Assembly: GCA_018268195.1 (NCBI GenBank)
Contig: JAFDWZ010000015.1
Span: 1 to 64,000, forward strand
DNA length: 64,000 nucleotides
Direction: 5' to 3'
Source of the DNA: Bacteroidota bacterium
Lineage (GTDB): Bacteria > Bacteroidota > Bacteroidia > AKYH767-A > OLB10
Of this stretch, positions 14,729 through 57,785 are shown piece after piece (positions within the stretch are counted from its first letter, which is position 1; each line of letters opens with the position of its first letter). The translations under genes were made by a program, and so were the position numbers. The notes beneath the pieces were generated by a model. That model worked only from the letters and a program-made list of their open reading frames with translations, ran no database searches and had not been told where the DNA came from.

Positions 14729-15440
14729 CTGACGGAAGTGGAGTAACATCTGCTTCTTGCAAAAGTGTTCAACAAAAAGATTTTAGTCAACGGAATTTTT
14801 CTTCGTAAACGAGTACATTTTTTTCTATCGTTATTGGAATAATTGGCTGCACACCAAGCCGCATATTCATCAAGAAAAAGTTTTCAATATTTCTATAGCT
14901 CAATCAGGAGCTTGTATTTCCAAACAAGTTTGAGACGGAAAACAAACATGATATTTGCCCATAGTAAGTTCGAAAAAGAGAACACCCTAAACACAAACAG
15001 CGACCAATGCTTCGCGCCAGTGCGGATTAAATTAAATATAACTCATTTTTTTATATCACTAAAAAGCATGCCGAGTGTTTGTATGATAAAAATCAGCAAC
15101 CAGCTAGTCTTGCATATCCTAAGGCTGCATTTGAGGTTGTACTTTATAATCAGATAATAAAATCCGATAATGGCGAGGATAAATAAGAATAAGAAAATTA
15201 ATTTCAAGAAAAACAAACATTCGTTTTTATGAAATCACAGAATTATTATTTTTGACAAATGATGGCCAATATTATACACGTTAATTTCGGATATATGGAT
15301 TTATAATACTAAAAGGAACCATTAGTGAACTTAAAAACAAATAGAATAAAAAGCCAATACAAAGTTACACCAAACTTGCTTATACCCAATAAGCATTAGA
15401 AATATTACATGTTTTTTAAACCTAAAATTAATTGCTTTCA
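14729..15440. other. A+T-rich intergenic region upstream of the GHKL/helicase pair
   Basis: About 700 nt with no convincing gene. A stop-free stretch on the + strand (15052-15186) encodes a plausible-looking C-terminal peptide ending IIKSDNGEDK, possibly a gene relic. A TTGACA at about 15253 and later TAnn boxes are possible promoter parts, but none is clear. The region begins where the composition changes from the sugar operon. Confidence 0.4.
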
Positions 15441-18400
15441 ATGAAAATAAAAAGTGCAAAATCATTTCGGTTTTGGTTTAAAACCGAACATAAAAAGAAG
15501 AAACCGAACGATACATCTTATAATGAAAACTTCATAGGGACATATTACGATGAAGACGGAGGAGGTAGAATAAACGGGTTTTACGAACTCTTTCATGGAG
15601 ATAAACCAAACATTCCAAATGATTTAATGGACGGGCTGAAAAATGCCCAAGACAGCCAAGCAATATACGAATTCGTTCAAAACGCTGCCGATTGTAACAG
15701 CGATTATTTTGCGGTTTTCTATGATGAAAATTATTTTTTAGCTATAAATAATGGAAGTCCATTTAACACTAATGATTTGCGTTCCATTTTAAATGCAAAT
15801 CAATCAACAAAAACAAATAATGAAGGACAAGCAATCGATTGCAGTAAAATAGGAAGGTTTGGTATCGGCTTTAAACTTGTGCATCGTTTAGTAGGAGAAA
15901 ACGATGGTAAAAATGAATTAGTAAACGATTACAAAGGTCCTATACTATTTAGTTGGAATCAACCAGAGCAATTTAAAAATTTTATCCAACTCAACAACCT
16001 AAATGATATTGAATACATTGACGATATAAACTCAAATGAACCTACATTTTTTAAAATCCTTATTACTAATTTCCCTACCCAACCACTTGAGCAAATTAGA
16101 GATATTAATTACAATCAAAAATGCCTATTTTCTGAAGATGAATTTCTTGAGTTTAAAACTTTTTTAACAAAACCAGAACATCATATTGATTTAACTCAAT
16201 TAAATCAAGGTTCATTATTTTTTCTAAAATTAGGCAAAGGAAAAAGTAACCTTTTAAATGAAAACTTATCATCATTGGACAATGGTGTTGCTTGCAGTTT
16301 AAATTTTCTAAATAAGCTAAATAAAGTAGAATTAGGGAAAGAAAATACAATAGGAAAACTCCCTTTAAATTTAATTTCATTTGATATAAAACCCAATGAA
16401 ATAAAAAGTCCAGAAGATGAATTTTGCCCTGCAAAAATCACATTTGGATATTTCTCTGACTACAAAAAGGGTTTAGAACATCTAAAAGGCAGTCCAAATT
16501 TTTACAAATTCTTTCCATTAAGCAAAGAAAATCACGGGTTAAATTTTGTCATACACTCAACTGCGTTTCGTATAAAAACTGATAGAACTCAATTTGAAGA
16601 AGATTCCGACAGCACCAATACTTCATTATTTAGTCTTTTTTGGGATAAGTTTAAACAGCAATTAGACGAATTAAGAGATAATGATATTCAAAAGTTTAAA
16701 TGCTTATATTCTAACTTATTGGTTTCTAAACCACTTGTAGATGAAAACAATAGAAAAAAATGGTTCTATAAATCACTGTATGAACCAATGATTAATTATT
16801 TAAAATCAAATATTCCAACCAAAAACGGCTATTCCGACAATCCTCAAAACGTAAAAATCAAAAATACCAAACAGCAATTAAACTTTTCTGATTTTGGCTT
16901 AAATAATATTAAGTGGTTTGAATGGGATAATGAAGCCGACAATTTATTGATTGATGAATCAAAAAATAAATTAGGAATTGAAAGTTGGGACATTAGAGAT
17001 ATTGTAGAGAACGCAAACCTTGAAAGCATAAACAATTGGATTGAGGAGAATTTCGAAAGTGAAACTTATAAAACATTTCTGAAAGAATTAGAAGATAGTT
17101 CTTTACGAATAAAAACAAAAGAACGTATTTGTCAAATCAAACTTTTTAAATTTTCAAATGGCGAATTTTGTTCGTTCAATGAAATTATTTCGCTAAAAGA
17201 TATATTTGGAAAAACATCTTTCAAGTTTACTAATTGTTTTTTCAACAACAATAAAACAAAAGGAATAAAAAACGAACTAATCAAATTAGGATTTGTAGTT
17301 TCTGAATTGCTTGTTGAAGATTATCCTTATATATTCTCATCTGTCATTCTCCCTGATGACAAAACACATTATGACTTGATTGCGAAATGGTGTGTCGAAA
17401 ATGCAAATAAACTAATAGCCGAAGAAAAGAAAAACTTATTTCTCAACTTCTTAAATGAAATTACAAAGTTTGACAATGTAGCCGAAGGCACTTTGAAAGA
17501 TTTGTGTTTATTTTGCGATGGCAAGTCAGAAATAAAACCATTAAACAAGCTTGTTGATTTCAACTTCAACACACCAAGTTGGCTTAACACATACAAAATA
17601 AAAAAAGATGAGTTTTTTCCCGAACTCAAACCCTTTTTAATTTCTGAAACAAAAACTTTGTTTAAGGATATTTATTTGCCGAGACAAGACATAATTCTTT
17701 CCGAATTAACCGAAACAAACGAAATAAAATCGCTTATCAAACTTTATCAAGAAAATCAAAAACAATTCTTCAAAGAGTTTATCATAAAGAAAACTGAAAG
17801 TGGATTTTTAATAACAAAGAAAACAAACACTACGTATCAAGTTCAATCCCCCGACCCAGAAACAAGGAAATTTATTGACAAGAATTGTGCAAATAATTTA
17901 TTCGTTCTTCCAAATGAATTTTTGAGCTACAAGGAAGAAGATGGGATTATTAAAACATTTGACTTATATAGTTTAATTTTAGATTTTGTTGATGTAAATG
18001 AACACAAGGAAACCCTCGTAAAGATTATTCATTATAATGACCCAAAACGTAAATTTTTACAAAAACTAACAGAGTTTAAATTTAATTCAGAAACAACCTA
18101 TACAAAAGATGATTATGAGTTCAAAATTTTGGATTGGGCTTGTAGCGACAATATCTTAAATGAAAAAGATTATCTGGAATTCAGAAAAAAGGTTGTTATT
18201 GAAGCTAAAAATCAAAAACTAACTCTTTCGGAAATTCCACCTTTTACCGACAAGATAAAAATTGACGATTACGAAATTAGTCTTGCCAAAATCCTCCCTG
18301 ACAATTATGAAAACAGCGATATTTTAAGCAGTTTGATAAATCAGTTTATAGGTCTTGGTTTAAAAAAAGAGCGAATTGAAAATTTATTTGGCATAAGTGA

Positions 18401-20222
18401 AGAAGCAGAACTATGTGAAATTTTTCAAATATTTTCTGAACAAAAAGAAACATTAGAAAATGCCGAACAATTGGCGTTTGTCATTTTGTACAATGAATAC
18501 GAAGAAGAAATTGAATTAAAATCGTTTAAAGTATTGGCAAAAGGTGGTGGAGAATATGATTTAACATACAACTTTTACACAAAGTCTTATGATTTTCTTG
18601 TTGCTGATGCTTCGCTTGATGATAAGTACAAAGGAATTAAAAAGATTTTGAAAGAATTGCCGTATGTAATATCAGAAGACAATCAACTTTTAGAAGAACC
18701 TTATTTTGATGATGAAAAATTTATTTGTCCTGATTTAATTAAAAAGAATTTATCTGATGAACAGAAGTTAAGCCTTGTAAACTTATTATACAATCAATGG
18801 GATAAGAAAAATAAAAAAACAGCCATCAGAAACATTGATTGGAGTAAAATTGATGATGTAGAAACAGAAAACATTTTAGGTTTCAATCCAATCCATTCTG
18901 TATTTCCGAGCAAATACGCTTGTGAAAGTGAAGTGTTGCCTGATTATTTAATAAAATGGATTGGTAAAGATAAAAATAAAATTTCCTTTCTATCAGACTT
19001 GGGTGTTTGGACAGAAAACTCTGTTGTCGTTGAATTGAGGAAATTCTTAAAAGACAAAAGTAAAGGATTTCAAAATAATCGTTTAGCGCAAGAAACTCGA
19101 TTTAACGATGATGAAACAATGCTTTTCAATTCGTTTGAATGGTTAAAAGAAAACGATTTAACACTAAAAACGGTAGGACAATTTGAAACCTTTAAAAAAG
19201 TTGTTGAAGTTGTAAATTGTAATAGATCTGAAGGAATGGGGTTAGGAATTTGGGATGAATACGACTTCGTGTTTTTAAAAGAAAACTCAAAAAAGAAATG
19301 GGAAAATGTAGAAAGCTATACAATATATGTGTACGATGGTGAAATGCCTAAAAAACTTTATATGTATTGTAATATCCTCTATAAAAAACATCTAACAAAT
19401 GAAGATATTGATTGGACATTCTCGAATTATGTATTTTACCGTTACAATGAAGATAATTATGCAGTAAACAAAGAAGATAAAATAATTTATCTAAACAAGA
19501 ACGAAGACGAAAAGAAGACACTTCAAAAAATCGCTTCCGATGAGGAAAATGATTTTTCTTTTGAAGATTTGTGGGCATTGTTTGGCGAAAGTTCAAATAG
19601 AGAGCAAGAGCTTGAAAAAGAAATTGCGAAGTTAAAAAAATTACAAGGCGATAAAAAACAAGATGACCCAAACCCAAACAATTCTTTTTTAGATGATGTA
19701 AAAGAATTTATTTCAGAACTTGAAGGTACAGAATGGAATGTCTTTATTCCTGAATTGAAAAACATATTGGAGTTGTCCGTTTCACACCCACAAGAGAAAC
19801 AAAGACTTTTTAATTTGATTGCTAAAATAAAACTGACTAAAGAAAAAAATGTAAAATTTGAAGATATAGACGAATATAATGTTGTAAGAATTGCCGATGA
19901 AAGATACTTTGTTCACAGTGCAAGAGGGGCTTTTGCTTATATTCATCCGTCTGAATTATTGAAGATGCAAAGTGATGAATATAAGATGGCCATTGATTAT
20001 GGAAAAAATTTCAAAATTTACGATACAGCCGAGGAAATACTACAGCTAAACACAACTCACATTTTGGCTTATCAATATGAAAAATCAATGGAAGAATTAT
20101 TTAGCTTTTGTCAAGCGAATAGAGATGCAAACAAACATCTTTTAATCATTGACAAAAATTATTCGGGAGAAAAATCGAGAGCTTTGTTGAAACTACTAAA
20201 TATTGAAGATGATTATCAATAA
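15441..20222 (+). CDS. Giant GHKL-ATPase protein (sacsin/MORC/HSP90-like N-terminal domain), putative defence protein
   Basis: A ~1593-residue cytoplasmic protein, no signal peptide or membrane helices. Near the N-terminus are the GHKL/Bergerat ATPase motifs: N-box IYEFVQNAADC (E77, N81, D84), G1-type box AINNGSPF (about 101-108, NNG in place of DxG), and the glycine-rich lid GRFGIGFK (138-145). The N-box form EFVQNAAD is the one seen in sacsin-like proteins. After the ATPase and transducer-like region there is a long alpha-rich body, a charged coiled coil (REQELEKEIAKLKKLQ, around 1395-1410), and a C-terminal domain I cannot name. Start: ATG at 15441; a TTG at 15432 is possible. The last 20 nt overlap the helicase gene, so the two are coupled. 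Codons are much more A/T-rich than the flanks. Known GHKL proteins of this kind couple ATP-driven clamp closure to nucleic-acid or client handling; a phage-defence role is inference from size, partner and mobility. Confidence 0.8.
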   Translation: MKIKSAKSFRFWFKTEHKKKKPNDTSYNENFIGTYYDEDGGGRINGFYELFHGDKPNIPNDLMDGLKNAQDSQAIYEFVQNAADCNSDYFAVFYDENYFLAINNGSPFNTNDLRSILNANQSTKTNNEGQAIDCSKIGRFGIGFKLVHRLVGENDGKNELVNDYKGPILFSWNQPEQFKNFIQLNNLNDIEYIDDINSNEPTFFKILITNFPTQPLEQIRDINYNQKCLFSEDEFLEFKTFLTKPEHHIDLTQLNQGSLFFLKLGKGKSNLLNENLSSLDNGVACSLNFLNKLNKVELGKENTIGKLPLNLISFDIKPNEIKSPEDEFCPAKITFGYFSDYKKGLEHLKGSPNFYKFFPLSKENHGLNFVIHSTAFRIKTDRTQFEEDSDSTNTSLFSLFWDKFKQQLDELRDNDIQKFKCLYSNLLVSKPLVDENNRKKWFYKSLYEPMINYLKSNIPTKNGYSDNPQNVKIKNTKQQLNFSDFGLNNIKWFEWDNEADNLLIDESKNKLGIESWDIRDIVENANLESINNWIEENFESETYKTFLKELEDSSLRIKTKERICQIKLFKFSNGEFCSFNEIISLKDIFGKTSFKFTNCFFNNNKTKGIKNELIKLGFVVSELLVEDYPYIFSSVILPDDKTHYDLIAKWCVENANKLIAEEKKNLFLNFLNEITKFDNVAEGTLKDLCLFCDGKSEIKPLNKLVDFNFNTPSWLNTYKIKKDEFFPELKPFLISETKTLFKDIYLPRQDIILSELTETNEIKSLIKLYQENQKQFFKEFIIKKTESGFLITKKTNTTYQVQSPDPETRKFIDKNCANNLFVLPNEFLSYKEEDGIIKTFDLYSLILDFVDVNEHKETLVKIIHYNDPKRKFLQKLTEFKFNSETTYTKDDYEFKILDWACSDNILNEKDYLEFRKKVVIEAKNQKLTLSEIPPFTDKIKIDDYEISLAKILPDNYENSDILSSLINQFIGLGLKKERIENLFGISEEAELCEIFQIFSEQKETLENAEQLAFVILYNEYEEEIELKSFKVLAKGGGEYDLTYNFYTKSYDFLVADASLDDKYKGIKKILKELPYVISEDNQLLEEPYFDDEKFICPDLIKKNLSDEQKLSLVNLLYNQWDKKNKKTAIRNIDWSKIDDVETENILGFNPIHSVFPSKYACESEVLPDYLIKWIGKDKNKISFLSDLGVWTENSVVVELRKFLKDKSKGFQNNRLAQETRFNDDETMLFNSFEWLKENDLTLKTVGQFETFKKVVEVVNCNRSEGMGLGIWDEYDFVFLKENSKKKWENVESYTIYVYDGEMPKKLYMYCNILYKKHLTNEDIDWTFSNYVFYRYNEDNYAVNKEDKIIYLNKNEDEKKTLQKIASDEENDFSFEDLWALFGESSNREQELEKEIAKLKKLQGDKKQDDPNPNNSFLDDVKEFISELEGTEWNVFIPELKNILELSVSHPQEKQRLFNLIAKIKLTKEKNVKFEDIDEYNVVRIADERYFVHSARGAFAYIHPSELLKMQSDEYKMAIDYGKNFKIYDTAEEILQLNTTHILAYQYEKSMEELFSFCQANRDANKHLLIIDKNYSGEKSRALLKLLNIEDDYQ

Positions 20223-22461
20223 CACCAAACATATAAACCTTATTCAAGACGAACTCATTTATCAAACAAATGAGTTTGAAAAGTTGTTAAAAAGACAAGC
20301 AGCCAAAATGTTTATTGAAAATCAGCTTTACTTGTGCAGATACCAAGGTTATGATGAAGCAAGAGGAAATATTATTGTGAAGTTTGACCACAAAATATGT
20401 TCTGCACCACGCAAAAATGAAAACTTATTATGCTTTGTTTCTTCCATTCAAGACGATAATGTAAAAAACTGGGGAGGTCTCACTTATGAAAGTTTACGAA
20501 CCCGGGTTGCAACGAAATTTGAATGTAAAACTGTATTTTTTTCTTACGAAAATAACCATACTATTGTAGGTTTATCAGGTGTAAAAGTTGAAGATATTGA
20601 AAAGTATGAAAGAAATGCTCTGGTGTTTTTAGCACCAACTGACCCACCTTTACAGTATTTAATAAACCTTGTTGATTTCCTAAAACAAGCAAGAAATAAC
20701 ACCAATAAAATATTAGAACTAAACATTGAAAAACCAAACTGGAAACCGCAACTTTTGGTAGTTGATGAGAATTTTGTTTCAAATATCCAGTTTGATTTTA
20801 TTGAGAATGACACTATAATTATTCAAGGTCCTCCGGGAACAGGGAAAACTTACCTAATGGCTTTATTATGCGAAGCTTTGCTAAAATCAGATTTTAGAAT
20901 ACTCGTAACTGCATTAACGAATAGAGCACTTATTGAATTAGCCGAAAAGGAACATTTAAAATCGTCTTTGGAGAAAGGCAAAGTTTTCAAATCGGCATTA
21001 ACAGCAGATGAAAGCAAAAACAAAAAAATTAAAGGTATTCAATCATTTAAAAGTTTGAGTAAACAACAACCACCATTGCTTTTGACGACTTATTACATAA
21101 TGAGCCAAATTGCAACAAAAGCTGTCGAGGGCGAGCATTTTGACTATATAATTATTGAAGAAGCAAGTCAGGCATTTTTATCTACTATTGCATTAGCAAG
21201 AAAACTCGGTAAAAAATGTATTATCATTGGTGACATCAAACAACTTGAACCAATTTTTCACAAGGAATATGCGCCCGAAGACACAAATAATTATCATTGG
21301 ATGATATGCGGACTTAAAGCAATTAGTTACTATTTGCCAAATGCAAAACAATACATTTTAACCGATTCTTACCGTTTAACGGAAAAATCCATTATAGGAA
21401 CGAATTTGTTTTACGGAGATGTATTAAAAAGCAAATCTGATGTAAAACTGCCACTTGACTTTTCAAATTTTCAAAACCTTAAAAGATATTTGAACAATTA
21501 TGGAGGTTCAAGTTTGGTAAAATTTAAACTTCCTGGTGGAAGATTGCCTTCCTTTGAATGTTCCGAATTTATTGTAAACATAATAGACCAAATAAAGCAG
21601 TTTAACAATAAAGCTGAAATTGCTGTATTAGCTTTTCATAAAGACACCATTCGTTTTCTTCAAAAAGAAATTTATTCTAAATGTGATAATTCCGAAAACA
21701 TTCTTATAGAAACCATTGATAGAATACAAGGTCTTACGACTGACTTTTGTATTTTCTTTGTTCCAATAGAAGGTATTCCGTTTGCCTTAGAAGCAAACCA
21801 TTTTAATGTTGCTACATCAAGAGCAAAATTGTGTACGCTAATAATTTCTGATGAAAATATTGCTTCGTTTTATCCCTTTATTGAAAGTAACGTAAAGCAA
21901 TATTTATTGTCATTAAATGACACATCTTATAGTAAAGAGGCCGTCAAATCGACAGAACCAAAAGAAAGCAAAGAAACTGAACAACCTCAAATAGGTTTAA
22001 AAGTTCTTGGCAAAATTGACATCTCGCAATTTGAGAAGCCAAAAAAAGAAATCAAAAAGGGAAAAGAAAATATCTACATAATTGACACGAATGTTTTTGT
22101 GGATTATCCCGACATCATTTCAAAAATTGACAAGCAATATCAAATCGTTTTATCTGCAAAAGTCATTGATGAATTGGACTATTTGAAAATTTCATTGTCC
22201 GAAGAACAAAATAAAAACGTTCGTAAAGCATTGAAACTAATCAACTTATGTTTAGACAATCGGAATATTAAAATGGATACAGCCGACTTTACTTTGCTTC
22301 CTAAAGACTTCAATAAAAACTCTCCTGATAATTTTATATTATCTGTTGCATTAAAATATAAAAACGAAAATCCAATAATATTAACATCAGACAATGGATT
22401 ACAAATTAAAGCTAAAGGATTAGGGATATCAACCATCACTCTTAATAAATTCTTAAAGTAA
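20203..22461 (+). CDS. Upf1-like SF1 helicase fused to a C-terminal PIN nuclease
   Basis: A 752-residue protein. Residues 1-170 are a non-catalytic N-terminal part. The SF1 helicase core has Walker A GPPGTGKT (209-216), ALTNRAL (motif Ia, 237-243), Walker B-like IIIEEASQA (316-324), motif III IIGDIKQLEP (341-350), motif V TIDRIQGLTTD (504-514) and motif VI VATSRAK (536-542). This is the DNA2/Upf1-like order. A lysine-rich linker (about 580-620) leads to a PIN domain: IYIIDTNVFVDYP (D628), KVIDELDYLK (E657), NSPDNFILSVAL (D709) and ILTSDNGLQIKAKGLGI (D730), the same pattern as the PIN half of PhoH-type ATPases. So one chain combines an RNA/DNA translocase and a likely RNase. The ATG at 20203 lies inside the upstream gene. 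All catalytic residues are present. I know no named system with this exact pair. Confidence 0.88.
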   Translation: MKMIINNTKHINLIQDELIYQTNEFEKLLKRQAAKMFIENQLYLCRYQGYDEARGNIIVKFDHKICSAPRKNENLLCFVSSIQDDNVKNWGGLTYESLRTRVATKFECKTVFFSYENNHTIVGLSGVKVEDIEKYERNALVFLAPTDPPLQYLINLVDFLKQARNNTNKILELNIEKPNWKPQLLVVDENFVSNIQFDFIENDTIIIQGPPGTGKTYLMALLCEALLKSDFRILVTALTNRALIELAEKEHLKSSLEKGKVFKSALTADESKNKKIKGIQSFKSLSKQQPPLLLTTYYIMSQIATKAVEGEHFDYIIIEEASQAFLSTIALARKLGKKCIIIGDIKQLEPIFHKEYAPEDTNNYHWMICGLKAISYYLPNAKQYILTDSYRLTEKSIIGTNLFYGDVLKSKSDVKLPLDFSNFQNLKRYLNNYGGSSLVKFKLPGGRLPSFECSEFIVNIIDQIKQFNNKAEIAVLAFHKDTIRFLQKEIYSKCDNSENILIETIDRIQGLTTDFCIFFVPIEGIPFALEANHFNVATSRAKLCTLIISDENIASFYPFIESNVKQYLLSLNDTSYSKEAVKSTEPKESKETEQPQIGLKVLGKIDISQFEKPKKEIKKGKENIYIIDTNVFVDYPDIISKIDKQYQIVLSAKVIDELDYLKISLSEEQNKNVRKALKLINLCLDNRNIKMDTADFTLLPKDFNKNSPDNFILSVALKYKNENPIILTSDNGLQIKAKGLGISTITLNKFLK

Positions 22462-32587: not shown

Positions 32588-35164
32588 CTATTCGTTCAAT
32601 GTGTTTTCTAAAGTCTTTTTAAATTCGTTTTCGTTGTTGTAGTTGTAGAACGGAACTGCTGTTATCAAATAAGTGTCTGTATGGATCTTGATAGTCTTTT
32701 GTTCGGTTCTTATTTCTTTCAAAAAGTCTTCTTTCCATTTGTCGTGTCCTAAAAGGTGGTTTCCTTTCGGCTCTATGAAAACCTGAAATGTCATTTGCTC
32801 TCCGCCAAGTTGTTTGCAAAACAATAAAAAGTCTGGTTCAAAAGCTCGTCCGAGTTTGTCAAAGATTTTGATTTCTCTCTCGTTTCGGATTAGGTAAATG
32901 TTTTCAAACTTTTGATTGAGACCTTCAAAACGTCTGGAAAACAGTTCTACAAATTTCTTCTCTTCACTTGTACCATAGTTGGCATTGTAAACATACCAAG
33001 GCTCGTTGGCTACTAAAGTTTCTTGTCGGTCTGCTCTTTCGCTGTCTTTGTAAACTTTGATTTCCTTGTCCTTGAAAACTTTATGAATTGGCTCTTTGAT
33101 ATAGTCTGAGCCTTCGTATTCTGTTGAATTGCTCTTTATATCTGCTTCAATGCTTTGCAAAAGTCCGTTTAAGGCTTGTAAATAGTCGAAATGGTTTATT
33201 TCCTTTAATCTGTCTGCTGTCCCGCTAAATGTAATTTCTAAGCCTGCTAAAAAGGCTGTGCTTTCAATGAAATTGGATAGAGAACCAACACTCGGAAAGT
33301 AATGAGATAAACTGTCAAAGTAGAAAAAAGGGTTTTGACTTAAAGCAAAGCGAATAGTGTTCTTTCGAATTTCAGTTAGTTTAGTGTCTTTGGCTTTGAT
33401 TGCTTCCGATTCAGTAATATCAGCACCTGCAAACGCACTAGTCATACGACCAACACCTGAAGATAAAGTGTGGCGATAGTTAGTTCTATTTACTCCCAAA
33501 TCTGCAAATGATTTTATGTTGTCAAAGCTCTTAGGGAGTTTTTTGTTGTAGAAAACGTGTCCGTCACGATAAAAATCTGTTTCCTTAAAGTCCATTTTTA
33601 AGGTTAGCTGTTTGGTTACAAGGTTTTCATCATCTTCATAAATACCCGAATCCACAAGTGCTTTCTTCAATTCAGAAATGTATCGGCTATCTTCTTTGGT
33701 ATGGTAATACAGTTCTTCCAATGTTTTTAAGTCATTGGAAATATCATCATCAAATTTTCGGGTAAACTTGTCTTGTCCTTCTTCCAATGCAAAAGGATAA
33801 TATCTTGCACCTCTACCAATTAATTGGGCTTCTGAAAGTGTTGTTTTGCCCGGCTTTCCATTTTTTCCATCTCGGTCTTCATAAAGGCGAACAATGTCAA
33901 ACAAATTCAAAACGTCCCAGCCTTCATTTAATTTCTGCACGGCAAAAACGGCACGGATTGGATTGTTGGGTTCTTCAAGTGTGTTTAATAGTCTATCACT
34001 TTCAGCTCCTTCCTGCTGTTTCTTTTTATCCTTACTGTCTGACTCATTGGCACTCAAACAATTTTCAAATCTAAAATTGGCTTGAATGCGTTTTACAATT
34101 TCATTTGCTGAAATGCCTTTGGCTTCAAAAAATCGGAAAGCCTTTTGAACGATTGGAACAGTAGAGGTTTTATGAATTTTCTCCACCATTGCCACCGAAA
34201 AATCATCAATCAGTTTATGAAAGTTCTCTTTGTTCTTTTCCGATTCTGCAATGGTTTTTTTTGCTTTGAAAAGAATTACGGGCTTTAAATTGATATTGTT
34301 TGAAGTTGCCAATTCCTGACGATACAAGTTCAAAATCAAGGCTTGAATGATTCTCTCTTGCTCGTCATACAAAGAACGGATAAGATTAATTTCTTTTGAA
34401 TACTTGTCTTTACGAAACTCGGCAAGGTCGTATTTAAAAATTACTTTGTCTTGATAGTGTTTTACCAATTCCGCTGTTTCAGTGTCAATGGTTGCCGTGA
34501 ACTCCAACAAGATATTTTCAAAATTGGAATCGTGAATTTTCTTTACGGTGTCTTCCCAACTGCCGAACAGTTTACCCGACCTTGTTCCTGCTACCAAGTG
34601 GTGAGCTTCGTCAGCAATCAAAACCAATTTTTTGTCCTTAAAATCTTCATAGGTTACGCTGTTTTCTTTTGTATTGTTCAGGTCAATATGAAGCTGTTGA
34701 ATAGTTGTAAACTTCAAATTGATATTTTGAATGTCTGCTTCTTCAAAGTTTTCAATTTCTTTGATTAAGACTTCTTTTCCATCAATCACAATTTTGTCAT
34801 TAAACAAGTATTTTGAAGCCTGAGGATTCAGAAAATTGTCTTTGGTTTTTTGAATGATATTGTTGCTGTTTACAAAAAACAAAAAATTGCGATAGCCTTT
34901 TTGGTATAGGTGCAACATCAAACCTGCCATTATCAAAGTCTTACCGCTACCTGTTGCCATATTGTAGAGCAAGTGAAACGGTCTTTTAGGTTTGCCTCCA
35001 AAATCTTCTGAATCGCACAATATAAAACGCTGAAAAGCTTCAATTTGATAAGGTCGCTGACCAAATCCGGACTTTAAATTGTCGGTTATGTGATTAGGAA
35101 CAGTAACTTGTGCTATGGCTCTTTTACCAAATTCCTGTACCAATATGTCATATAAAAACGCCAT
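32588..35164 (-). CDS. Type III restriction enzyme, Res subunit (helicase-nuclease)
   Basis: Restriction subunit that, with Mod, translocates along DNA and cuts unmethylated foreign DNA. The 858-residue protein has an SF2 helicase: Walker A YNMATGSGKTLIMAGLMLHL, Walker B VLIADEAHHLV, FTATIDTETAE (motif III) and AQLIGRGARYYPF (motif VI). At the C-terminus a PD-(D/E)xK-type nuclease is indicated by FEPDFLLF, followed by QVFIEPKGNHL (the E-x-K pair). Length and order match Res. The start overlaps the BRO-type gene's stop by 1 nt, so it is translated from the same five-gene operon as Mod. All core motifs look intact. Confidence 0.93.
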   Translation of the reverse strand: MAFLYDILVQEFGKRAIAQVTVPNHITDNLKSGFGQRPYQIEAFQRFILCDSEDFGGKPKRPFHLLYNMATGSGKTLIMAGLMLHLYQKGYRNFLFFVNSNNIIQKTKDNFLNPQASKYLFNDKIVIDGKEVLIKEIENFEEADIQNINLKFTTIQQLHIDLNNTKENSVTYEDFKDKKLVLIADEAHHLVAGTRSGKLFGSWEDTVKKIHDSNFENILLEFTATIDTETAELVKHYQDKVIFKYDLAEFRKDKYSKEINLIRSLYDEQERIIQALILNLYRQELATSNNINLKPVILFKAKKTIAESEKNKENFHKLIDDFSVAMVEKIHKTSTVPIVQKAFRFFEAKGISANEIVKRIQANFRFENCLSANESDSKDKKKQQEGAESDRLLNTLEEPNNPIRAVFAVQKLNEGWDVLNLFDIVRLYEDRDGKNGKPGKTTLSEAQLIGRGARYYPFALEEGQDKFTRKFDDDISNDLKTLEELYYHTKEDSRYISELKKALVDSGIYEDDENLVTKQLTLKMDFKETDFYRDGHVFYNKKLPKSFDNIKSFADLGVNRTNYRHTLSSGVGRMTSAFAGADITESEAIKAKDTKLTEIRKNTIRFALSQNPFFYFDSLSHYFPSVGSLSNFIESTAFLAGLEITFSGTADRLKEINHFDYLQALNGLLQSIEADIKSNSTEYEGSDYIKEPIHKVFKDKEIKVYKDSERADRQETLVANEPWYVYNANYGTSEEKKFVELFSRRFEGLNQKFENIYLIRNEREIKIFDKLGRAFEPDFLLFCKQLGGEQMTFQVFIEPKGNHLLGHDKWKEDFLKEIRTEQKTIKIHTDTYLITAVPFYNYNNENEFKKTLENTLNE

Positions 35165-36003
35165 TATTCTATTTCCTTGTTTTTATTAGGTAAAATCATT
35201 TTTTTTGCAGATAATTTAGAAACAACTTTTTTCCCTGTTTTTTCTTCAATTTCTTTTCGAGTATTACCGGCAATAGTTCCTCCTTGTTTGGCTATTTTTT
35301 TGCTTTCAAAAAAGTGTTTTGGTTTTTTCTCTTTACTGATTTCGGTAGTGGTAGCTTCTGCCAACATATTAAGAACCAGTTCCAGGTTGGTCATATTATC
35401 ACGCAGATTTTCCTTTTTCAGGTCTTTGAATTTTTTGTATTGTCTGACCGAAAATCCACTCCATGCCTTAGTAATTTCATCGGTTAAAATAGCGTATTCC
35501 TGCCCTTTTTTTACACCTCGTTTATCCCATTCATCGGTAAGCTCTTTTCTTATTTCAATGCTTTTGAGCCGTTGATTAATCCATTCTTTACTATATCCTT
35601 TTTTCAGATAGGTTTCCATCAGTCGGTCAATACCGATTTCCGGATCTTCTATTTCGTCAATTCGTTCTCGTGCTACTTGGGCTATCCACAATTTGAAAGG
35701 CTCTGCTTTTGGTGACGGAATACTTTGTATCAATCTAAAAAGTTGTTCTGTATTTGCTACATCGGTTAATCTCATTTTGCCGTCTTCTGCCATCATTTTC
35801 AACTGTCCGATTTTTTCGGACAGTTCACTTCCTTCTTTTTTGAGTTTAGTTTTTAGGTCGTTCCAGTATTTTCTGGGTCTGTCGGTTTGTGTTAAAATCT
35901 CAATCACATCTATAATAGAAAAATACCATTTTTCTTCTTCTTCATTCCACGAAGTTCTTACCCTTTTATCTTCAAATACCTTGAGTGCAAATCTGTTAGT
36001 CAT
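35164..36003 (-). CDS. BRO/antirepressor-like protein inside the type III R-M operon
   Basis: A 279-residue cytoplasmic protein. The first ~110 residues resemble the Bro-N fold: FEDKRVRTSWNEEEEKWYFS, then VIEILTQTDRPRKYWNDLKT and LRLTDVANTEQLFRLI-like text (here MRLTDVANTEQLFRLIQ). The middle is helical, and the C-terminus is basic (KKPKHFFESKKIAKQGGTIA, KKVVSKLSAKK), suggesting DNA binding. Such proteins occur in phages as antirepressors and in genomic islands. Position between mod and res, with gaps of 5 nt and -1 nt, implies co-expression in fixed ratio with the R-M enzyme. Whether it regulates or modifies the system is unknown. Confidence 0.75.
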   Translation of the reverse strand: MTNRFALKVFEDKRVRTSWNEEEEKWYFSIIDVIEILTQTDRPRKYWNDLKTKLKKEGSELSEKIGQLKMMAEDGKMRLTDVANTEQLFRLIQSIPSPKAEPFKLWIAQVARERIDEIEDPEIGIDRLMETYLKKGYSKEWINQRLKSIEIRKELTDEWDKRGVKKGQEYAILTDEITKAWSGFSVRQYKKFKDLKKENLRDNMTNLELVLNMLAEATTTEISKEKKPKHFFESKKIAKQGGTIAGNTRKEIEEKTGKKVVSKLSAKKMILPNKNKEIE

Positions 36004-36008
36004 ACTGA

Positions 36009-37928
36009 TTATTTCTTTATTTGGTAAAAATCTTGGGTTACTTTCTTTTCATCTTCGGTGCAAGCAAAGTCGGCATCATTGAGCGAAGAAAGATTGACAT
36101 ACAATTGGTTTTTGTCTAACAATTCCACCAAATGTTGCTTTTGCTCTGCTAATGTAAGGGCTTTAAATTCATCAATGTGTTGTTCTTGTTTTTGCAAGTC
36201 AACATTGTAGTTAAGGAAAGATTTTTCTTTCATCTGCTCCCAAATTTTCAAAAGGGCTTTGGTGTCTTTGGCGGATTCAATTTGCTCAATAAAAGTTTGA
36301 TTGTATTTTTTGAGTTCGAGATATATAAATTCATCTGAACCATTTTGCTCAATTACTCTCTGAACACGTTTTGACGTTACAGTTTCAACATAGTCCATTT
36401 GTTCACACAAAATAAATTTGCGATTTCCACCATCTTCTTTGTTTAATTCTAAAACAGCGTGTGCAGTTGTGCCACTGCCTGCGTGATAATCCAAAACAAT
36501 TGCATCTTTATCGTTACCAACAACTGCATAAACACAATCTTTTACATTGTATAATGATTTTGGGAAACTAAATTTATTCTCTGGAACTAATCTGCTAACA
36601 ATTTTTGTCCCATATTCATTAGCATCGTATTTAGGGTCAATCCATACAGTTTTGTATTGTCCAAAATTCTTACCGATTTCAACATCCCATTGACCACTTT
36701 TTTTTCTTGCTCGAAGTAGGTCTCTTATTTCTTCAACGGATTGTCTCGCATATCTCCATTTTCTTTCAATATTATCATTATCTATTGGATAAATATAAAC
36801 CTTACCGTCTTTGATAATTTCTCTTTTACTTGGGTGAAAATCGTCTTCACATACTTCACCAAATTCAATGATTTCGGAAGTCTTTGGGTCAACAACAATA
36901 GGATAAAAACAGTTTTTTGCATCACTTCTTAAACTCTCTCCGCCCCAATTTCTCAAATTTGAAAAATCAATTTCTCTTTCGTCAATTATTCTATTCCCAA
37001 TTAATTTCTTTCCTTTTGGAACAACAAAAAATGCGTATTCGTGTGTGTATGAGAAATTCGTCCCTTGTACACCCCTTGGATTATGTACGATTGTTATGCA
37101 ATGAACTTCATAATCCTTGAAAAACTCTTTAAGCATTACGCCCAAATGAGGTTGTTCATTCTCATCAATTGCCACTATCAAAATACCATCTTTTCTCAAT
37201 AGTTCTTTTGCCGCTATTAACCTGTTATACATAAAGGTTAGCCAAGTTGAACGCTTGAAATTATTATTGTAAGTGAAAGTATCCCCCAATCCACCTGTAT
37301 TATATGGCGGGTCTATGTAAATGAGTTTTACTTTCCCTGCAAATTCATTCTTAAGCGTATGCAATGCTAAAAGATTGTTGCCTTTAATAATCAGGTTGTC
37401 AGTAATAACCCCTTCATCGTCACGATTAAATTTATCAAGTGGTTTTTCTCCGTCTTTGTCAATGCGTTTGGCATTTGTCAACACCTTTGGCTCTAAAAGT
37501 TGGGTAATTTCATCTTGTGCTAAAATTTCATTGAAGAAAATTTCTTCTCGTTTGTCTTCTTCACGGCTTTGTCCGCCTTCCAAAATGCAGTCTCTAAATG
37601 GCCAAACCAAAGCCACTTCGTTGCGTTGCTTTAAATATTTGCCGTCAATAGTTAGTCCAACTTTGTTTTTATACTGCGTGTAGCTGTCGTTCAGGTAGTT
37701 TTTCTGTTCCAAAAACTGCACAAATAAGTTTTGGTTAAAAACCAATGTGCCTTTTACGTTTACAAAAAACTTGTCTTTCAGGTCTGCATTGTCGAGCAAC
37801 AGTCCAATCAATTCTTCATCAAAATTCTGTGCTTTATTAAGCACCACCCATTTTTTCAGCTCTCCGTTGTCGGTAAAGTAGTTGGTTTCTTTTTTCAGTT
37901 GCTTTTCAAGTGTTTCGTATAATTTCAT
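36009..37928 (-). CDS. Type III DNA methyltransferase, Mod subunit
   Basis: Adenine-N6 methyltransferase that also gives sequence recognition to the Res complex. The 639-residue protein has the beta-class order: catalytic IDPPYNTGGLGDTFTYNN (DPPY) first, then target-recognition region, then the AdoMet-binding LDYHAGSGTTAHAVLELN and FILCEQMDYV. DSFIFAVD-like motifs were not needed; VAIDENEQPHL follows DPPY as in Mod/LlaHI-like enzymes. The 5' end overlaps the nucleotidase stop by 4 nt (ATGA). No homopolymer or tandem tetranucleotide tract is visible in the reading frame, so the phase variation known in some mod genes is not suggested here. Target sequence cannot be deduced. Confidence 0.94.
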   Translation of the reverse strand: MKLYETLEKQLKKETNYFTDNGELKKWVVLNKAQNFDEELIGLLLDNADLKDKFFVNVKGTLVFNQNLFVQFLEQKNYLNDSYTQYKNKVGLTIDGKYLKQRNEVALVWPFRDCILEGGQSREEDKREEIFFNEILAQDEITQLLEPKVLTNAKRIDKDGEKPLDKFNRDDEGVITDNLIIKGNNLLALHTLKNEFAGKVKLIYIDPPYNTGGLGDTFTYNNNFKRSTWLTFMYNRLIAAKELLRKDGILIVAIDENEQPHLGVMLKEFFKDYEVHCITIVHNPRGVQGTNFSYTHEYAFFVVPKGKKLIGNRIIDEREIDFSNLRNWGGESLRSDAKNCFYPIVVDPKTSEIIEFGEVCEDDFHPSKREIIKDGKVYIYPIDNDNIERKWRYARQSVEEIRDLLRARKKSGQWDVEIGKNFGQYKTVWIDPKYDANEYGTKIVSRLVPENKFSFPKSLYNVKDCVYAVVGNDKDAIVLDYHAGSGTTAHAVLELNKEDGGNRKFILCEQMDYVETVTSKRVQRVIEQNGSDEFIYLELKKYNQTFIEQIESAKDTKALLKIWEQMKEKSFLNYNVDLQKQEQHIDEFKALTLAEQKQHLVELLDKNQLYVNLSSLNDADFACTEDEKKVTQDFYQIKK

Positions 37929-38884
37929 TTCTCGTCTTTTGCTTTACTGAGTGTTATATTTCCATTTAGTTTCAGTAATGGAGAATCTGATGTGTAAGGC
38001 ACTTTTCCAGATGGAACAACTTTAGAAGATTCAGTCAAATGAACTTCTTGGTCGTCAAAAAATATGTGAGCTCCAAATGCTTTTAAAACATTGTCTTTTG
38101 AAAGCCCACCTAAAAAGTAGGCTTCGTCAACATAAACACCCCATTTGCGAAGTGTTTTGATAACTCTCATATGTGATGGAGCATTTCTTGCAGTAACAAT
38201 TGCCAGCCTCAAAGGAGAAAGCTCAATTGGTGGTGGCATCTCTTCTTGAATTTTTGAAAGTTTGATTAGCAATTTTGCAAAAGGACCTTCTGCCAATGGT
38301 TCGTCTTGATGTTCTTGCTCGTATTTGTGAAAGGCTTCAATACCTTCTGTTTTGTATCTGTGTTCTGATTCGTCCGAAAACAAAACTGCGTCAGCATCAA
38401 AAGCAATTTTCACTCTGTTGTCTGTTGGTTTAAATTCGGTAGGTGGCTCATAAATATATGCAGCAGCCGACTTTTTAGAATCAATTACACTTTGAACATC
38501 TTTAAGGTCTTTGCTTAAAAATAAGTCAATATCAAAAGCATCAATGTAAGGTGCTAAAGGTTCGCCACCACTAAAAGCCATTCTAGTTATGTCCAAATTG
38601 TATTTGCCAACCGAGTTCATAATTCTTACACCTGTTTCAGGACTGTTTCTAGACATTACAACAACTTCAACAATTCTTTTTTTTGCGTTTTCATTCAAGT
38701 GAAGTAAACTTTGAATTAGGTGAAACGCTGTTCCTGGTTCTAATGGTTCATTTTCGTGTTCAAGTTGATATTTTCTGAAACCGGAAATACCTTCGGTATT
38801 GAAAATTTCATTTTCCCTTTCAAGATTGAAAAGTGCTCGACTGGATACTCCAACTACTAATATTTCTGAAAAGTCTACTGGCAT
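37925..38884 (-). CDS. Cytosolic 5'-nucleotidase (NT5C1-like) in the R-M operon
   Basis: A 319-residue HAD-fold protein of the 5'-nucleotidase family related to eukaryotic NT5C1. Motif I-like VKIAFDADAVLFSDESEHRY (about 158-177), PLAEGPFAKLL, LRLAIVTARNAPSHMRVIKT (motif II-like, Thr-Ala-Arg), DEAYFLGGLSKDNVLKAFGA and HIFFDDQEVHL (acidic motif) follow the family. An N-terminal half repeats a similar pattern (VVGVSSRALFNLERENEIF). It would hydrolyse nucleoside monophosphates. It starts inside a TAATG overlap with the XRE stop and ends overlapping mod, so it is a full member of the R-M operon. A defence role (nucleotide depletion or signal removal) is inference. Confidence 0.85.
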   Translation of the reverse strand: MPVDFSEILVVGVSSRALFNLERENEIFNTEGISGFRKYQLEHENEPLEPGTAFHLIQSLLHLNENAKKRIVEVVVMSRNSPETGVRIMNSVGKYNLDITRMAFSGGEPLAPYIDAFDIDLFLSKDLKDVQSVIDSKKSAAAYIYEPPTEFKPTDNRVKIAFDADAVLFSDESEHRYKTEGIEAFHKYEQEHQDEPLAEGPFAKLLIKLSKIQEEMPPPIELSPLRLAIVTARNAPSHMRVIKTLRKWGVYVDEAYFLGGLSKDNVLKAFGAHIFFDDQEVHLTESSKVVPSGKVPYTSDSPLLKLNGNITLSKAKDEK

Positions 38885-39186
38885 TATTTAGGTTTCTTTT
38901 TGTTGTATTTAATTTTCTCTTCTGCTACTTGCATTGCTTGTAATGCCAAATCTTCGTCTTGAACTTCGTAATATAGTTTGTCTGAAAGCCAAGCTATGAT
39001 TACTTCATTCTTTTGGTTCTTATAAAAGTTGGCAAGTGATTTTACTTGCTCTTTTGTCGGCATTCGTTTGTCCTGCTCAATTTTACTTAAGATAGTCGGG
39101 TCAAGCGAAAGTTTGGCCCCAACCTCTCTAAGGAGTAGTCCTTTTCTTTCTCTTAATTCTCGTAATGTCGTCCCAATTGTTTTCAA
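38884..39186 (-). CDS. XRE-family transcriptional regulator of the type III operon
   Basis: About 100 residues with an N-terminal helix-turn-helix: IGTTLRELRERKGLLLREVG, AKLSLDPTILSKIEQDKR and MPTKEQVKSLANFY. A TTG at 39186 (followed by KTIGTTLREL) is preferred as start: the longer reading begins with a TTG at 39219 that lies inside the TACATTTG promoter box. The C-terminal part (LSDKLYYEVQDEDLALQAMQ) is typical of XRE regulators found with restriction or nucleotidase genes. First gene of the operon, overlapping the nucleotidase ATG by 1 nt. Likely autoregulator and timing factor. Confidence 0.8.
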   Translation of the reverse strand: MKTIGTTLRELRERKGLLLREVGAKLSLDPTILSKIEQDKRMPTKEQVKSLANFYKNQKNEVIIAWLSDKLYYEVQDEDLALQAMQVAEEKIKYNKKKPK

Positions 39187-39216
39187 TGTGCTTTGTTTTG
39201 ACTTGACAAATATTGG

Positions 39217-39224
39217 CAAATGTA
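39217..39224 (-). promoter_or_regulatory. Predicted -7 promoter box of the type III R-M operon
   Basis: TACATTTG on the minus strand is a TAnnTTTG match about 30 nt upstream of the TTG at 39186. It is the only good box between the operon and the hsdM relic. Confidence 0.5.
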
Positions 39225-39253
39225 AAAATTATTTTTCGTTTCATTGTCAAAAG

Positions 39254-39490
39254 TTACCTTCTATTTTTCAGGCGAAGTGGCCGGTTTTCGGCAAACTCAG
39301 CAAAAGTTAAATCGCCATCGCTTTCGTCTAAAGCGTTTTGGTATTCTTCATCCCACAAGTCGCTTACCCGTTTGAAGAATAGCAGAGGGAAAATATATTG
39401 TTTAAAGTCAGCCGCATAAATCATTCCTCGTAGAATATTGGCTGCTCCCCAGAGATAATCTTCTAATTGTTTTTGTGTCCTAATTTCAGT
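39254..39490 (-). pseudogene. Truncated type I methylase hsdM (N-terminal fragment)
   Basis: A frame overlapping the 3' end of the AbiEii gene and ending at TAA 39254-39256 encodes QLEDYLWGAANILRG, then MIYAADFKQYIFPLLFFKRV and SDLWDEEYQNALDES, then FAEFAENRPLRLKNRR. This is the N-terminal helical domain of HsdM, the DNA methylase subunit of type I restriction. The ~500 residues that should follow, with the AdoMet and NPPF motifs, are missing. The cut lies where the type III operon promoter begins, so that operon probably replaced the rest. Exact 5' end uncertain. Confidence 0.85.
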
Positions 39491-40281
39491 TTCTTTAAAT
39501 GTCTTTGCACTTCTCGTTCTACTTGGTCAAAGTCGGGTAAGTCTTTTATTTGTTCACTCATGGAACTTTGCCAGCGACCTTTGTATTGTGGTAAGCGTTC
39601 GGTTATTTTTTTCGGAAAATCGGCAGGATTTAATTCTTTGCTTTTACACTTGCTTTCAAATTCACTCTTGTAAAAATCAACATCCATTCCGTGTTGCTCC
39701 AATAAATACCATAAGTCGTAAAAATCACGGGCTTGCATTCGCTGCATTACCGAACGCATTTTTTCAACCAATGCTTCTTCCAACGTGTAACATAATAATT
39801 GATAATCTTCCAAGTCCGAATAATCCACAAAAACACTTTTCATTATAGGATTAAATACTAATTGTTCACTTCGTGAAATATCTATTTTTACACGCTTATT
39901 ACTCCCTTGCCCACCAAGTGGACCAATGTAGCTGATGTAAAAATTGACACCTCCATCTTCGTGTTGGTTGTCATCAACGATTTCAAGCGGGATGTTGGCT
40001 TCTTCTTTTATAAACTCAAATGTTTGATTAAACCATTCAAAAATTTGTTCGTTAGAAATTTCATTTTTCAACAATGTAAAACCAAGGTCTTCCGAAAAAC
40101 GGTAATCCTCAAAATAGATTTTTTTCAATACCGTTCCGCCTTTGAACACAATTGCTCTGGAAAGTTGTTCGTGTTGTGAAATTCCAAACAATATCCACGA
40201 AAGAATATAGTCTTTTTCGATTTGTTGGTCTCGAACACCAATTGCTCTTGCTTTTTGCTGTATTTCTCCTGGCTTTATCAC
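39463..40281 (-). CDS. AbiEii/AbiGii-family nucleotidyltransferase toxin
   Basis: Toxin half of a type IV-like abortive-infection module; AbiEii proteins are DUF1814 nucleotidyltransferases. The 272-residue protein has the family landmarks GVRDQQIEKDYILSWIL, AIVFKGGTVLKKIYFEDYRF and MRSVMQRMQARDFYDLWYLL. In the nucleotidyltransferase motif it reads SEDLGF where the family has SEDxDF: the second aspartate of the metal-binding pair is glycine (codon GGT). This may cripple the enzyme. The start overlaps the AbiEi stop by 4 nt. It reads into the hsdM relic at its 3' end. Confidence 0.88.
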   Translation of the reverse strand: MIKPGEIQQKARAIGVRDQQIEKDYILSWILFGISQHEQLSRAIVFKGGTVLKKIYFEDYRFSEDLGFTLLKNEISNEQIFEWFNQTFEFIKEEANIPLEIVDDNQHEDGGVNFYISYIGPLGGQGSNKRVKIDISRSEQLVFNPIMKSVFVDYSDLEDYQLLCYTLEEALVEKMRSVMQRMQARDFYDLWYLLEQHGMDVDFYKSEFESKCKSKELNPADFPKKITERLPQYKGRWQSSMSEQIKDLPDFDQVEREVQRHLKKLKLGHKNN

Positions 40282-41150
40282 GTGTAAATTGCCGATTTAA
40301 TGGTTTCTGTTTCTAAATTTTGTAACACGCTCCAACGTCTATTGAATGTTCCTTTCTTGGGTAATTCTGTATCAAGTACGATATAGGAATCCGTTTTTAG
40401 TTTTTGCAATTCATCTATGATGTTGGTTTGCACTTTCAACACTTCCAACAAAAAACCCAAACGTTTTATCACTGCTTGCGAACCAAAACGATTTGAATAG
40501 TCAAGCAAAGTATCATATTTAATCTTGTCTTTTGAAATGTAGATGGCTCTCGCTATTTCTACAATTCCACCTGCGTAGTCGGGTTTAAACAAGCAATCAA
40601 TAAATGTCTTTTCCAAATCAGAACACAGCACTTTATGAAAACTGTCAATCCGTATTTTTTTTGCTCCGAAAAAATGTTTGTCGTTGTGGTAAATAAATTG
40701 AAAAGGAACATTTTTGATTTCAATTTGAGAAGGTCTGATTTGTTTTGATACAACAATTTGCTCTTTCAAAGAAGGTTGTGTTATAAGATTATGAATCTGC
40801 AATGCAGAATAATAACCGATGTAATGTTTCGCATCATTAACTAAATGTTCCGCAATCAAATGCCAGTCGGGCATAAAGGTTTCGGCATTTGTTTCATAAG
40901 GAATAATGTGATAAACACCTTCTTTCAAACGCATCAAAAGCCCACGTCTGGTCATATCACTCAACAGTTCCCGAATTGTTCCTACTTTTGAATTTGGTAA
41001 CGCTTTTTGAGCCAAATCAATATCAAAACAAGTCTTGTTCTGCTCGTTGAAGTACGATAGAAGTTGGGCAGATTGTGTCGATATGTTTTTACTTTCTATA
41101 TTCAATATGTCAGGTATATCCTGATTATAAATATATAAAATATTATTCAA
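40278..41150 (-). CDS. AbiEi-family antitoxin/transcriptional regulator
   Basis: Cognate antitoxin of AbiEii, in the family a transcriptional autorepressor with an N-terminal winged helix and a C-terminal AbiEi_1/4-type domain. The 290-residue protein shows a winged-helix segment (SAQLLSYFNEQNKTCFDIDL, SKVGTIRELLSDMTRRGLLM, RLKEGVYHIIP) and then YIGYYSALQIHNL and RIDSFHKVLCSDLEKTFIDC. The first codon at 41150 is TTG; a TTG or internal start slightly later is possible. It is coupled to the toxin gene by a 4-nt overlap. A palindrome overlaps its start and is a likely operator. Confidence 0.85.
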   Translation of the reverse strand: MNNILYIYNQDIPDILNIESKNISTQSAQLLSYFNEQNKTCFDIDLAQKALPNSKVGTIRELLSDMTRRGLLMRLKEGVYHIIPYETNAETFMPDWHLIAEHLVNDAKHYIGYYSALQIHNLITQPSLKEQIVVSKQIRPSQIEIKNVPFQFIYHNDKHFFGAKKIRIDSFHKVLCSDLEKTFIDCLFKPDYAGGIVEIARAIYISKDKIKYDTLLDYSNRFGSQAVIKRLGFLLEVLKVQTNIIDELQKLKTDSYIVLDTELPKKGTFNRRWSVLQNLETETIKSAIYT

Positions 41151-52972: not shown

Positions 52973-53695
52973 TTATTGTTGTTGTAGAATTTCTTTTTTG
53001 TTACTTTTTTCTTTGTTAATACTTGTTAATATGTTCAAAACTATAGGTTGACCAGTCTGTTCGGTATTCAGGTAAACCTGTGCCGGTGTTTTGTAAGCGA
53101 GCGATTGGTGTGAGCGGTCATGATTGTAAAAATTAAAATATTCCGTTAACGCTAACCAAAGGTCCGTTCCGGTTTTAAATTTATTGGCGTAAATCTTTTC
53201 TTGTTTTACACTGCGCCATACACGCTCTATAAACGCATTGTCGGTGGCTCTGCCTCTGCCATCCATGCTTATTTGAACGTTTTCTAATTTGTTTTCTTGC
53301 CAGATGTTGGTAAAGCGCTCGCTGGTGAACTGACTGCCCTGATCTGTGTTAAATATTTGAGGTGAACCATAGTTGTCAATAGCTTCCTGCTTACAGCTTT
53401 TGCAAAATTCAACGGTCATTGTATTGCTCAATTTGTAGCTGAGTATGTAGCGGCTGTGCCAGTCTATCACTGCTGTCAGGTACATAAAGCCGTTGCTTAA
53501 CGGTATATATGTAATATCCATGCTCCAGACCTGATTGTTTTGTGTAATGCTCATGTTGCGCAATATGTAAGGATATTTTTTGTGACCGGGTGCAATCCTA
53601 CTTGTGTTGCGTTTGGGATATTGTGCTATTAATCCCATTTTGTACATCAGCCTGCGTATGCGTTTGATGTTATACACGTTTCCATCGCGTTGCAA
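52973..53695 (-). CDS. IS3-family transposase OrfB, catalytic part
   Basis: A 240-residue reading with the DDE integrase core: VWSMDITYIPLSNGFMYL (first D), QIFNTDQGSQFTSERF (second D) and GRATDNAFIERVWRSVKQEK (E), and the C-terminal HQSLAYKTPAQVYLN. The preceding helical part of OrfB (HPYYG... region) lies in another frame at 53647-54183, and the ORF's first methionine is absent, so it can only be made by frameshifting or is dead. The residues RIQNQLQRDGNVYNIKRIR continue the N-terminal side in this frame. Confidence 0.9.
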   Translation of the reverse strand: MQRDGNVYNIKRIRRLMYKMGLIAQYPKRNTSRIAPGHKKYPYILRNMSITQNNQVWSMDITYIPLSNGFMYLTAVIDWHSRYILSYKLSNTMTVEFCKSCKQEAIDNYGSPQIFNTDQGSQFTSERFTNIWQENKLENVQISMDGRGRATDNAFIERVWRSVKQEKIYANKFKTGTDLWLALTEYFNFYNHDRSHQSLAYKTPAQVYLNTEQTGQPIVLNILTSINKEKSNKKEILQQQ

Positions 53696-54183: not shown

Positions 54184-54273
54184 TTTTTAAACTGATTTTG
54201 ATGTTAAATTTACATGTTATTTTATTTCAAACTCAGTCCAAATTTTGGGGAGCATTACATTGTTTAGCCTTGC

Positions 54274-54671: not shown

Positions 54672-54682
54672 CGTATGGCGTT

Positions 54683-56980: not shown

Positions 56981-56984
56981 ATTT

Positions 56985-57224: not shown

Positions 57225-57235
57225 AGAATTGTATG

Positions 57236-57634: not shown

Positions 57635-57689
57635 TTTCCTTTGTGCAGAATTTATAGCGTTGCCCACGCTGTTTAAATTACTATTGTGT

Positions 57690-57697
57690 CAAAGGTA
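57690..57697 (-). promoter_or_regulatory. Predicted promoter box of the type II R-M operon
   Basis: TACCTTTG on the minus strand matches TAnnTTTG about 55 nt upstream of the ATG at 57634. Two AACAATTTTT direct repeats lie just upstream (57729-57760) and could be regulator sites. Confidence 0.5.
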
Positions 57698-57785
57698 AAA
57701 ATCTCCGTTTAAAATGGTGCAATATATTGAACAATTTTTTCAACAATTTTTCACTGTCAAGTTTGTTGCTGTCAACTGGTGCGAT

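Follow-up and report, generated by a model that had tools for sequence, protein, structure and literature searches.

A TmtA-type ATPase gene and an adjoining helicase-PIN gene: a probable two-gene variant of the Tiamat anti-phage family

Two overlapping genes were studied in a 64,000-nucleotide (nt) stretch of Bacteroidota contig JAFDWZ010000015.1, hereafter the window. Gene 1 encodes a GHKL ATPase related to TmtA of the Tiamat anti-phage family, and gene 2 encodes a Upf1-like superfamily 1 (SF1) helicase with a C-terminal PIN nuclease. We read the locus as a two-gene variant of Tiamat, in which a sensor ATPase would gate a docked helicase-PIN effector, and put this reading at about two in three.

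The named family and its closest relatives

Tiamat was reportedly named in Millman et al. 2022, and in keeping with PADLOC naming we take it to be a single-gene system. Its mechanism has been described as unknown (PMC10482375, PMC12926258). The window form resembles Tiamat in its GHKL/sacsin ATPase body spanning about 1500 positions, in size and in patchy occurrence in defence islands; Tiamat is however modelled as one protein, whereas the window form has a dedicated C-terminal tail and an adjoining helicase-PIN. Mokosh (MkoA/MkoB, MkoC) likewise joins a Upf1-like SF1 helicase to a nuclease, a PLD in type II, but is not known to have a GHKL component, and its profile match to gene 2 is partial. 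PhoH2 (PIN-PhoH) joins a PIN_4 nuclease to a helicase-type NTPase, but the domain order is reversed in the window protein, and the helicase there is Upf1-like SF1, not PhoH. In eukaryotes, analogues of the two halves serve proteostasis and nonsense-mediated decay. Upf1 and SMG6 of the latter pathway offer a Upf1-like helicase and an SMG6-like PIN (by fold matches), but the window helicase-PIN is one polypeptide beside a GHKL protein, and the likeness is an analogy only.

VcSduA requires both its GHKL ATPase and its nuclease residues for defence (PMC12137116). VcSduA/Shedu type I-D and the paraMORCs (PMC12137116, PMC3710099) share with the window pair a GHKL ATPase that presumably governs a nuclease; unlike the pair, they carry the nuclease in the same chain, as PD-(D/E)xK (HEPN in Ymh paraMORC fusions), lack a helicase and are not sacsin-type. 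In CoCoNuT types II/III the UPF1-like helicase CnuH is nearly always beside an NTPase of another family, with RNA the predicted target (PMC11090510), but that NTPase is the McrB GTPase, GHKL is absent and PIN goes unmentioned in the text of that paper.

In a profile search gene 1 scored 1168 bits against PDLC03970, one of the PADLOC Tiamat models (PDLC03964-03972), and in the genome search this match covered model positions 1-732 and 828-1514 of 1552. NCBIfam P_loop_sacsin scored 59.3 bits, above its cutoff of 50, and the Pfam HATPase match was weak. The GHKL motifs read E77-FVQNAAD (N-box), INNG (102-105) and GRFGIGFK (138-145); residues E77, N81, D84, N103, G105, G138, G141, G143 and K145 are invariant across nine TmtA relatives. 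With the TmtA profile spanning most of its length and the GHKL/sacsin ATP-binding motifs intact, gene 1 is, as judged from sequence, a member of the Tiamat family. The layout is not that of a single-gene system: a second gene overlaps gene 1 by 14 nt, and the tail of TmtA co-varies with it. A DUF4263 nuclease fused to GHKL, as in Shedu and the paraMORCs, was absent from the Pfam scan. The initial annotation knew of no named system here; that has to be given up for gene 1, but the pairing of TmtA with a helicase-PIN does appear new, no description of it having been found in the open-access literature searched. The PADLOC TmtA models cover neither the helicase-PIN partner nor docking-tail logic.

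Pfam identified AAA_11/AAA_12 and PIN_4 (81 bits, gathering score 21.9) in gene 2. Its core has the motifs I, II, III, V and VI of a UPF1-like SF1 helicase (GPPGTGKT, EEASQ, GDIKQLEP, RIQGLTTD and NVATSRAK), and its nuclease the acidic residues D628, E657, D709 and D730 (numbered from TTG) of a PIN_4 domain; the helicase motif cores and all four acids are invariant in seven relatives. The earlier claim that all catalytic motifs (GHKL, SF1, PIN) are present in both proteins was thus borne out, with their cores conserved in relatives. The PIN domain had been called PhoH-type, with PIN_9 named as the profile to search. The type was right, PIN_4 being that found in PhoH2 (the NCBIfam PhoH2 match was weak), and the family wrong. 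Against TIGR00376 (IGHMBP2 family) gene 2 scored 69, below the cutoff of 349, and is therefore not an orthologue of that family. Both co-directional open reading frames (ORFs) exist as first described, of 1593 and 750 amino acids (aa), but the 20-nt overlap given for them assumed a TTG start. The ATG at 20209 aligns with start positions in relatives, giving the 750-aa protein and an overlap of 14 nt, the same length as in L002, L003 and G194.

Foldseek, run with a low-confidence AlphaFold model, led from the helicase to Upf1/IGHMBP2 (E about 1e-12) and from the PIN to the SMG6 PIN domain. These fold matches, with PIN_4 as a PhoH2-type domain, make RNA the somewhat likelier target. We considered a two-gene architecture acting on DNA instead, in which DNA of phages or plasmids would be unwound by the helicase and cut, as single strands, by the PIN. 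Upf1-like helicases do include single-stranded DNA enzymes (PMC11090510), and gene 2 also matched Dna2 and SMUBP-2 in sequence and fold searches, but the PhoH2-type nuclease and the SMG6 match speak against DNA, and we regard this version as unlikely.

Co-inheritance and exchange of parts

Of the helicase loci with a readable upstream side, 9/9 (eight full-length helicases and one split by assembly) had directly upstream either a TmtA-type gene or the C-terminal end of one. TmtA was essentially whole in the window, L002, L003 (where the contig truncates its 5' end), G194 (L018), L004, L005 and L050. The G608 contig has room upstream of the helicase for only the last 219 aa of TmtA, and the helicase split by assembly is that of G418. 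The G448 copy, an internal helicase fragment beside transposase-like ORFs, was left out of the counts.

For seven pairs, TmtA was split into a body and a C-terminal tail of ~180 residues, and the second protein into helicase N-domain, helicase core and PIN; the identities were correlated by an exact Mantel test. Tail identity tracked that of the helicase core (r=0.98, P=0.0006) and of the helicase N-domain (r=0.97, P=0.0014), a relation first seen in six pairs. Body identity, by contrast, was uncorrelated with helicase (r=0.13, P=0.22) or tail (r=0.10). Single loci have the same mosaic form. L050 has an L002-like body (66%) with an L005-like tail (72%) and helicase (64–68%); the G194 body belongs to another TmtA model (PDLC03972) and is 20% identical to that of the window, yet its tail and helicase are 60% and 70% identical. 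When identity was followed along TmtA in a sliding comparison, it switched near residue 1400 for the window protein (compared with L005) and near residue 1500 for L050. The multiple alignment used there seems to misalign L050 with L005 over the final 63 residues; pairwise BLAST of the two gave 66% over 199 residues. Between window-type and L005-type tails, hhalign probability was only 16%. Assignment of the tail to a DUF3883/NOV-type domain was dropped on this account and because the scanned tails had no Pfam match.

These results bear on the possibility of plain Tiamat, with TmtA alone as the defence system and the helicase-PIN an independent defence gene that travels beside it. Tiamat is modelled as one protein, and PDLC03970-type TmtA occurs without a helicase-PIN partner in G646 (1214 bits, seemingly solo), G373 and G450. 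The helicase, however, was never seen without TmtA just upstream where that side could be read, often overlapping it, and tail and helicase co-vary tightly, which together leave this account improbable.

A third part open to exchange is the PIN cassette. Its identity stays at 66–84% regardless of helicase divergence, and it occurs on other N-termini, fused to an HD-like domain in L006/G587. PIN segments of L004 and L006 share 90% protein identity and 82% identity at fourfold sites (32% expected by chance), which indicates that exchange between different cassette hosts was recent. Members of the PIN family are fused to proteins adjoining MkoA-like helicases in G226 and L006. This, and the PADLOC matches of gene 2 to MkoA (91 bits) and MkoC (50 bits), would suit a Mokosh-like system, with the helicase-nuclease as primary defence enzyme and TmtA as an accessory for specificity or its chaperone. 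We rejected Mokosh membership, since the MkoA matches are short and partial, confined to the helicase core (the best at 632-686 of 1112) and mostly generic to SF1; in place of an MkoB/PLD partner the locus has TmtA, with PIN_4 as nuclease, and GHKL is not known as a Mokosh component. A Mokosh-like division of roles is likewise improbable.

A docked helicase-PIN, as in our two-gene reading, is not the only way in which TmtA meets an SF1 helicase. In G297, G033 and G594 such a helicase is fused at the TmtA C-terminus (in G297 within what is, by reading of its neighbours, a BREX-like locus), independent support for GHKL and SF1 activities working together.

Several further arrangements were noted among TmtA genes and PIN cassettes. 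The G418 TmtA has a partner helicase that seems PIN-less and is split over two contigs (L065:6602-12910, L064:205-1029). The G373 TmtA (L016:7195-14351) contains DarT at 1442-1636 and an HD-like domain at 1746-1937, and a macro-domain-like gene adjoins it. The G450 TmtA (L028:7295-14477; PDLC03970, 498 bits) is directly downstream of ZorA-like/ZorB-like motor genes, possibly a Zorya-Tiamat hybrid. L006:793-10543 holds a row of genes for an MkoA-like helicase, a DarT-containing protein, a macro-domain protein and the HD-PIN protein, whose HD part shares 38% identity with the final part of the G373 TmtA. In L070:5160-11016 an MkoA-like helicase is followed by a 740-aa protein whose terminal PIN_4 is about 50% identical to the window cassette. 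The N-terminal partner of the G445 cassette (L062:405-1490) resembles uracil-DNA glycosylase by eye, which Pfam did not confirm.

Acquisition and surroundings of the pair

The pair is horizontally acquired, rare and patchy. Neither protein has a second copy in its own genome, and TmtA was found in none of 23 other genomes of the family searched, three congeners included (1/24 with its own). Counting the own genome, the phylum sample held the helicase-PIN in 2/395 genomes and a TmtA relative in 5/395; in the class sample PDLC03970 matched in 6/395 and the helicase-PIN profile in 7/395, PIN-only and fragmentary matches included. Plasmid and phage records gave no match at the limits used. The pair has a G+C content of 29.8%; that of the whole window is 37.1%, and that of the lowest 7-kb stretch not overlapping the pair is 33.4%. 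The pair is flanked by a UXS/sugar gene on one side and a mutase gene on the other; in congener G415 both genes are conserved but stand about 0.8 kb apart, against 8 kb in the window, marking a site without the pair (remnant in Table 1). No integration-end direct repeats were found at the flanks, each searched separately, no tRNA genes were found in the window, and a scan for promoter-like sites returned them at chance level.

The initial annotation had described mobile, defence-type genes, richer in A+T than their neighbours and placed between sugar genes and a mutase gene. The position is as claimed, its base counts (14 and 23 G/C in two 60-base stretches) are exact, and patchy distribution, low G+C, the empty site and defence neighbours agree with it. 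Conserved core synteny, which would have spoken otherwise, was not seen; distribution is sporadic.

Defence-type genes occur elsewhere in the window. The cluster at 32588-41150 holds the enzyme and methylase of a type III restriction system, the PADLOC candidates PDC-S13/PDC-S08 and an AbiEi/AbiEii toxin-antitoxin pair. The stretch 52973-63949 has transposase-like ORFs (IS3 type by eye) and, at 55-64 kb, a type II cytosine methylase with Vsr and a type I restriction enzyme, the latter present at 62465-63949 as either a whole gene or a fragment. In other genomes, the G194 pair comes after a pAgo gene (PDLC02385, 897 bits; L018:10059-12137, directly upstream) and a YhcG nuclease, SspABC genes are close to the L050 pair, whose contig was classified as viral, and ORFs that look Vsr-like and DNA-methylase-like by eye come after the L005 pair.

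A host stress or quality-control module that is not phage-specific, sacsin/HSP90-like and with Upf1/SMG6-like RNA decay, would suit the roles of the eukaryotic analogues and the fold matches to Upf1 and SMG6, but is very unlikely for a pair of such rarity, foreign composition and defence neighbours, whose module shuffling is typical of conflict systems.

Table 1. Positions of the two genes, their parts and the insertion-site remnant in the window
Feature	Position	Strand	Remarks
Gene 1, TmtA-type GHKL (sacsin/HSP90-like) ATPase	15441..20222	+	1593 aa, ATG 15441; PADLOC, NCBIfam, motifs
GHKL nucleotide-binding region, residues 73-150	15657..15890	+	N-box E77xxxNAAD, NNG 103-105, GxxGxGFK 138-145
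TmtA C-terminal tail, residues 1415-1593, proposed docking tail	19683..20222	+	Co-inherited with helicase; no Pfam match
Overlap of gene 1 and gene 2	20209..20222	+	14 nt; equal length in four loci
Gene 2, Upf1/IGHMBP2-like SF1 helicase with C-terminal PIN_4 nuclease	20209..22461	+	750 aa from ATG; ORF open from TTG 20203
SF1 helicase core	20800..21900	+	Walker A GPPGTGKT 20827, EEASQ motif II 21151, GDIKQLEP 21229, motif V 21709, motif VI 21805
Exchangeable PIN cassette: linker KIDISQFEKPKKE plus PIN_4 nuclease	22012..22458	+	Four acidic residues intact
Degraded remnant of 87-aa gene, intact at G415 empty site	14912..15103	-	65% identity to L046:2456-2651; marks insertion region

A proposed sensor, dock and effector

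In the two-gene Tiamat variant that we propose, the TmtA body (GHKL ATPase and long middle region) would sense an infection cue and switch state with ATP, while the C-terminal ~180 residues would serve as a dedicated dock for the helicase-PIN. The latter would stay inactive as long as TmtA neither releases nor loads it; thereafter it would track along nucleic acid, most likely RNA, and cut it, so that phage genes are no longer expressed or the cell is halted. Physical docking is suggested by tail-helicase co-inheritance, the pattern expected from a specific binding interface; free exchange of the body is that expected of a sensor under phage pressure, and exchange of the PIN cassette that expected of an output domain. 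That an ATP-driven change in TmtA gates the helicase-PIN we infer by analogy with VcSduA, where GHKL ATPase and nuclease residues are both needed. The division of labour in the initial annotation, ATP-driven control by the GHKL protein with the helicase-PIN as effector, fits this evidence as a putative function, and the pair is probably anti-phage in activity.

Several points weigh against this proposal. The Mantel test draws on three tail types among seven loci and hence on few independent swaps. The converse of the adjacency rule fails: TmtA relatives occur with other outputs, and many have no helicase-PIN partner, which implies that TmtA can also work by itself or through other effectors. 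The tails scanned matched no Pfam family. AlphaFold gave a mean pLDDT (model confidence) of 50 for the middle and C-terminal part of TmtA (five sequences), and that model, with no PDB match at E<=0.001, was not used; the helicase-PIN model, at 56, was used for fold class only. With both models of low confidence, the tail fold and the interface are not visible. The preference for RNA comes from Upf1/SMG6/PhoH2-type similarity only.

A broader view, which we hold tentatively and think rather less likely than not to be right as a whole, is that Tiamat is a plug-in sensor family, with exchangeable GHKL bodies and output ends: a helicase-PIN that docks, an SF1 helicase or DarT-HD that is fused, or neighbouring Zorya-like motor genes. 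The window form might then be a bacterial Upf1-plus-SMG6-like RNA surveillance system, in which infection-triggered GHKL switching would license helicase-guided RNA cutting.

The nuclease cassette is common to Tiamat-like, Mokosh-like and HD-containing loci. The swaps divide the system into sensor body, docking tail with helicase, and PIN cassette, and so predict which part binds which. The mechanism of Tiamat, a named but unexplained defence family, would thereby become directly testable.

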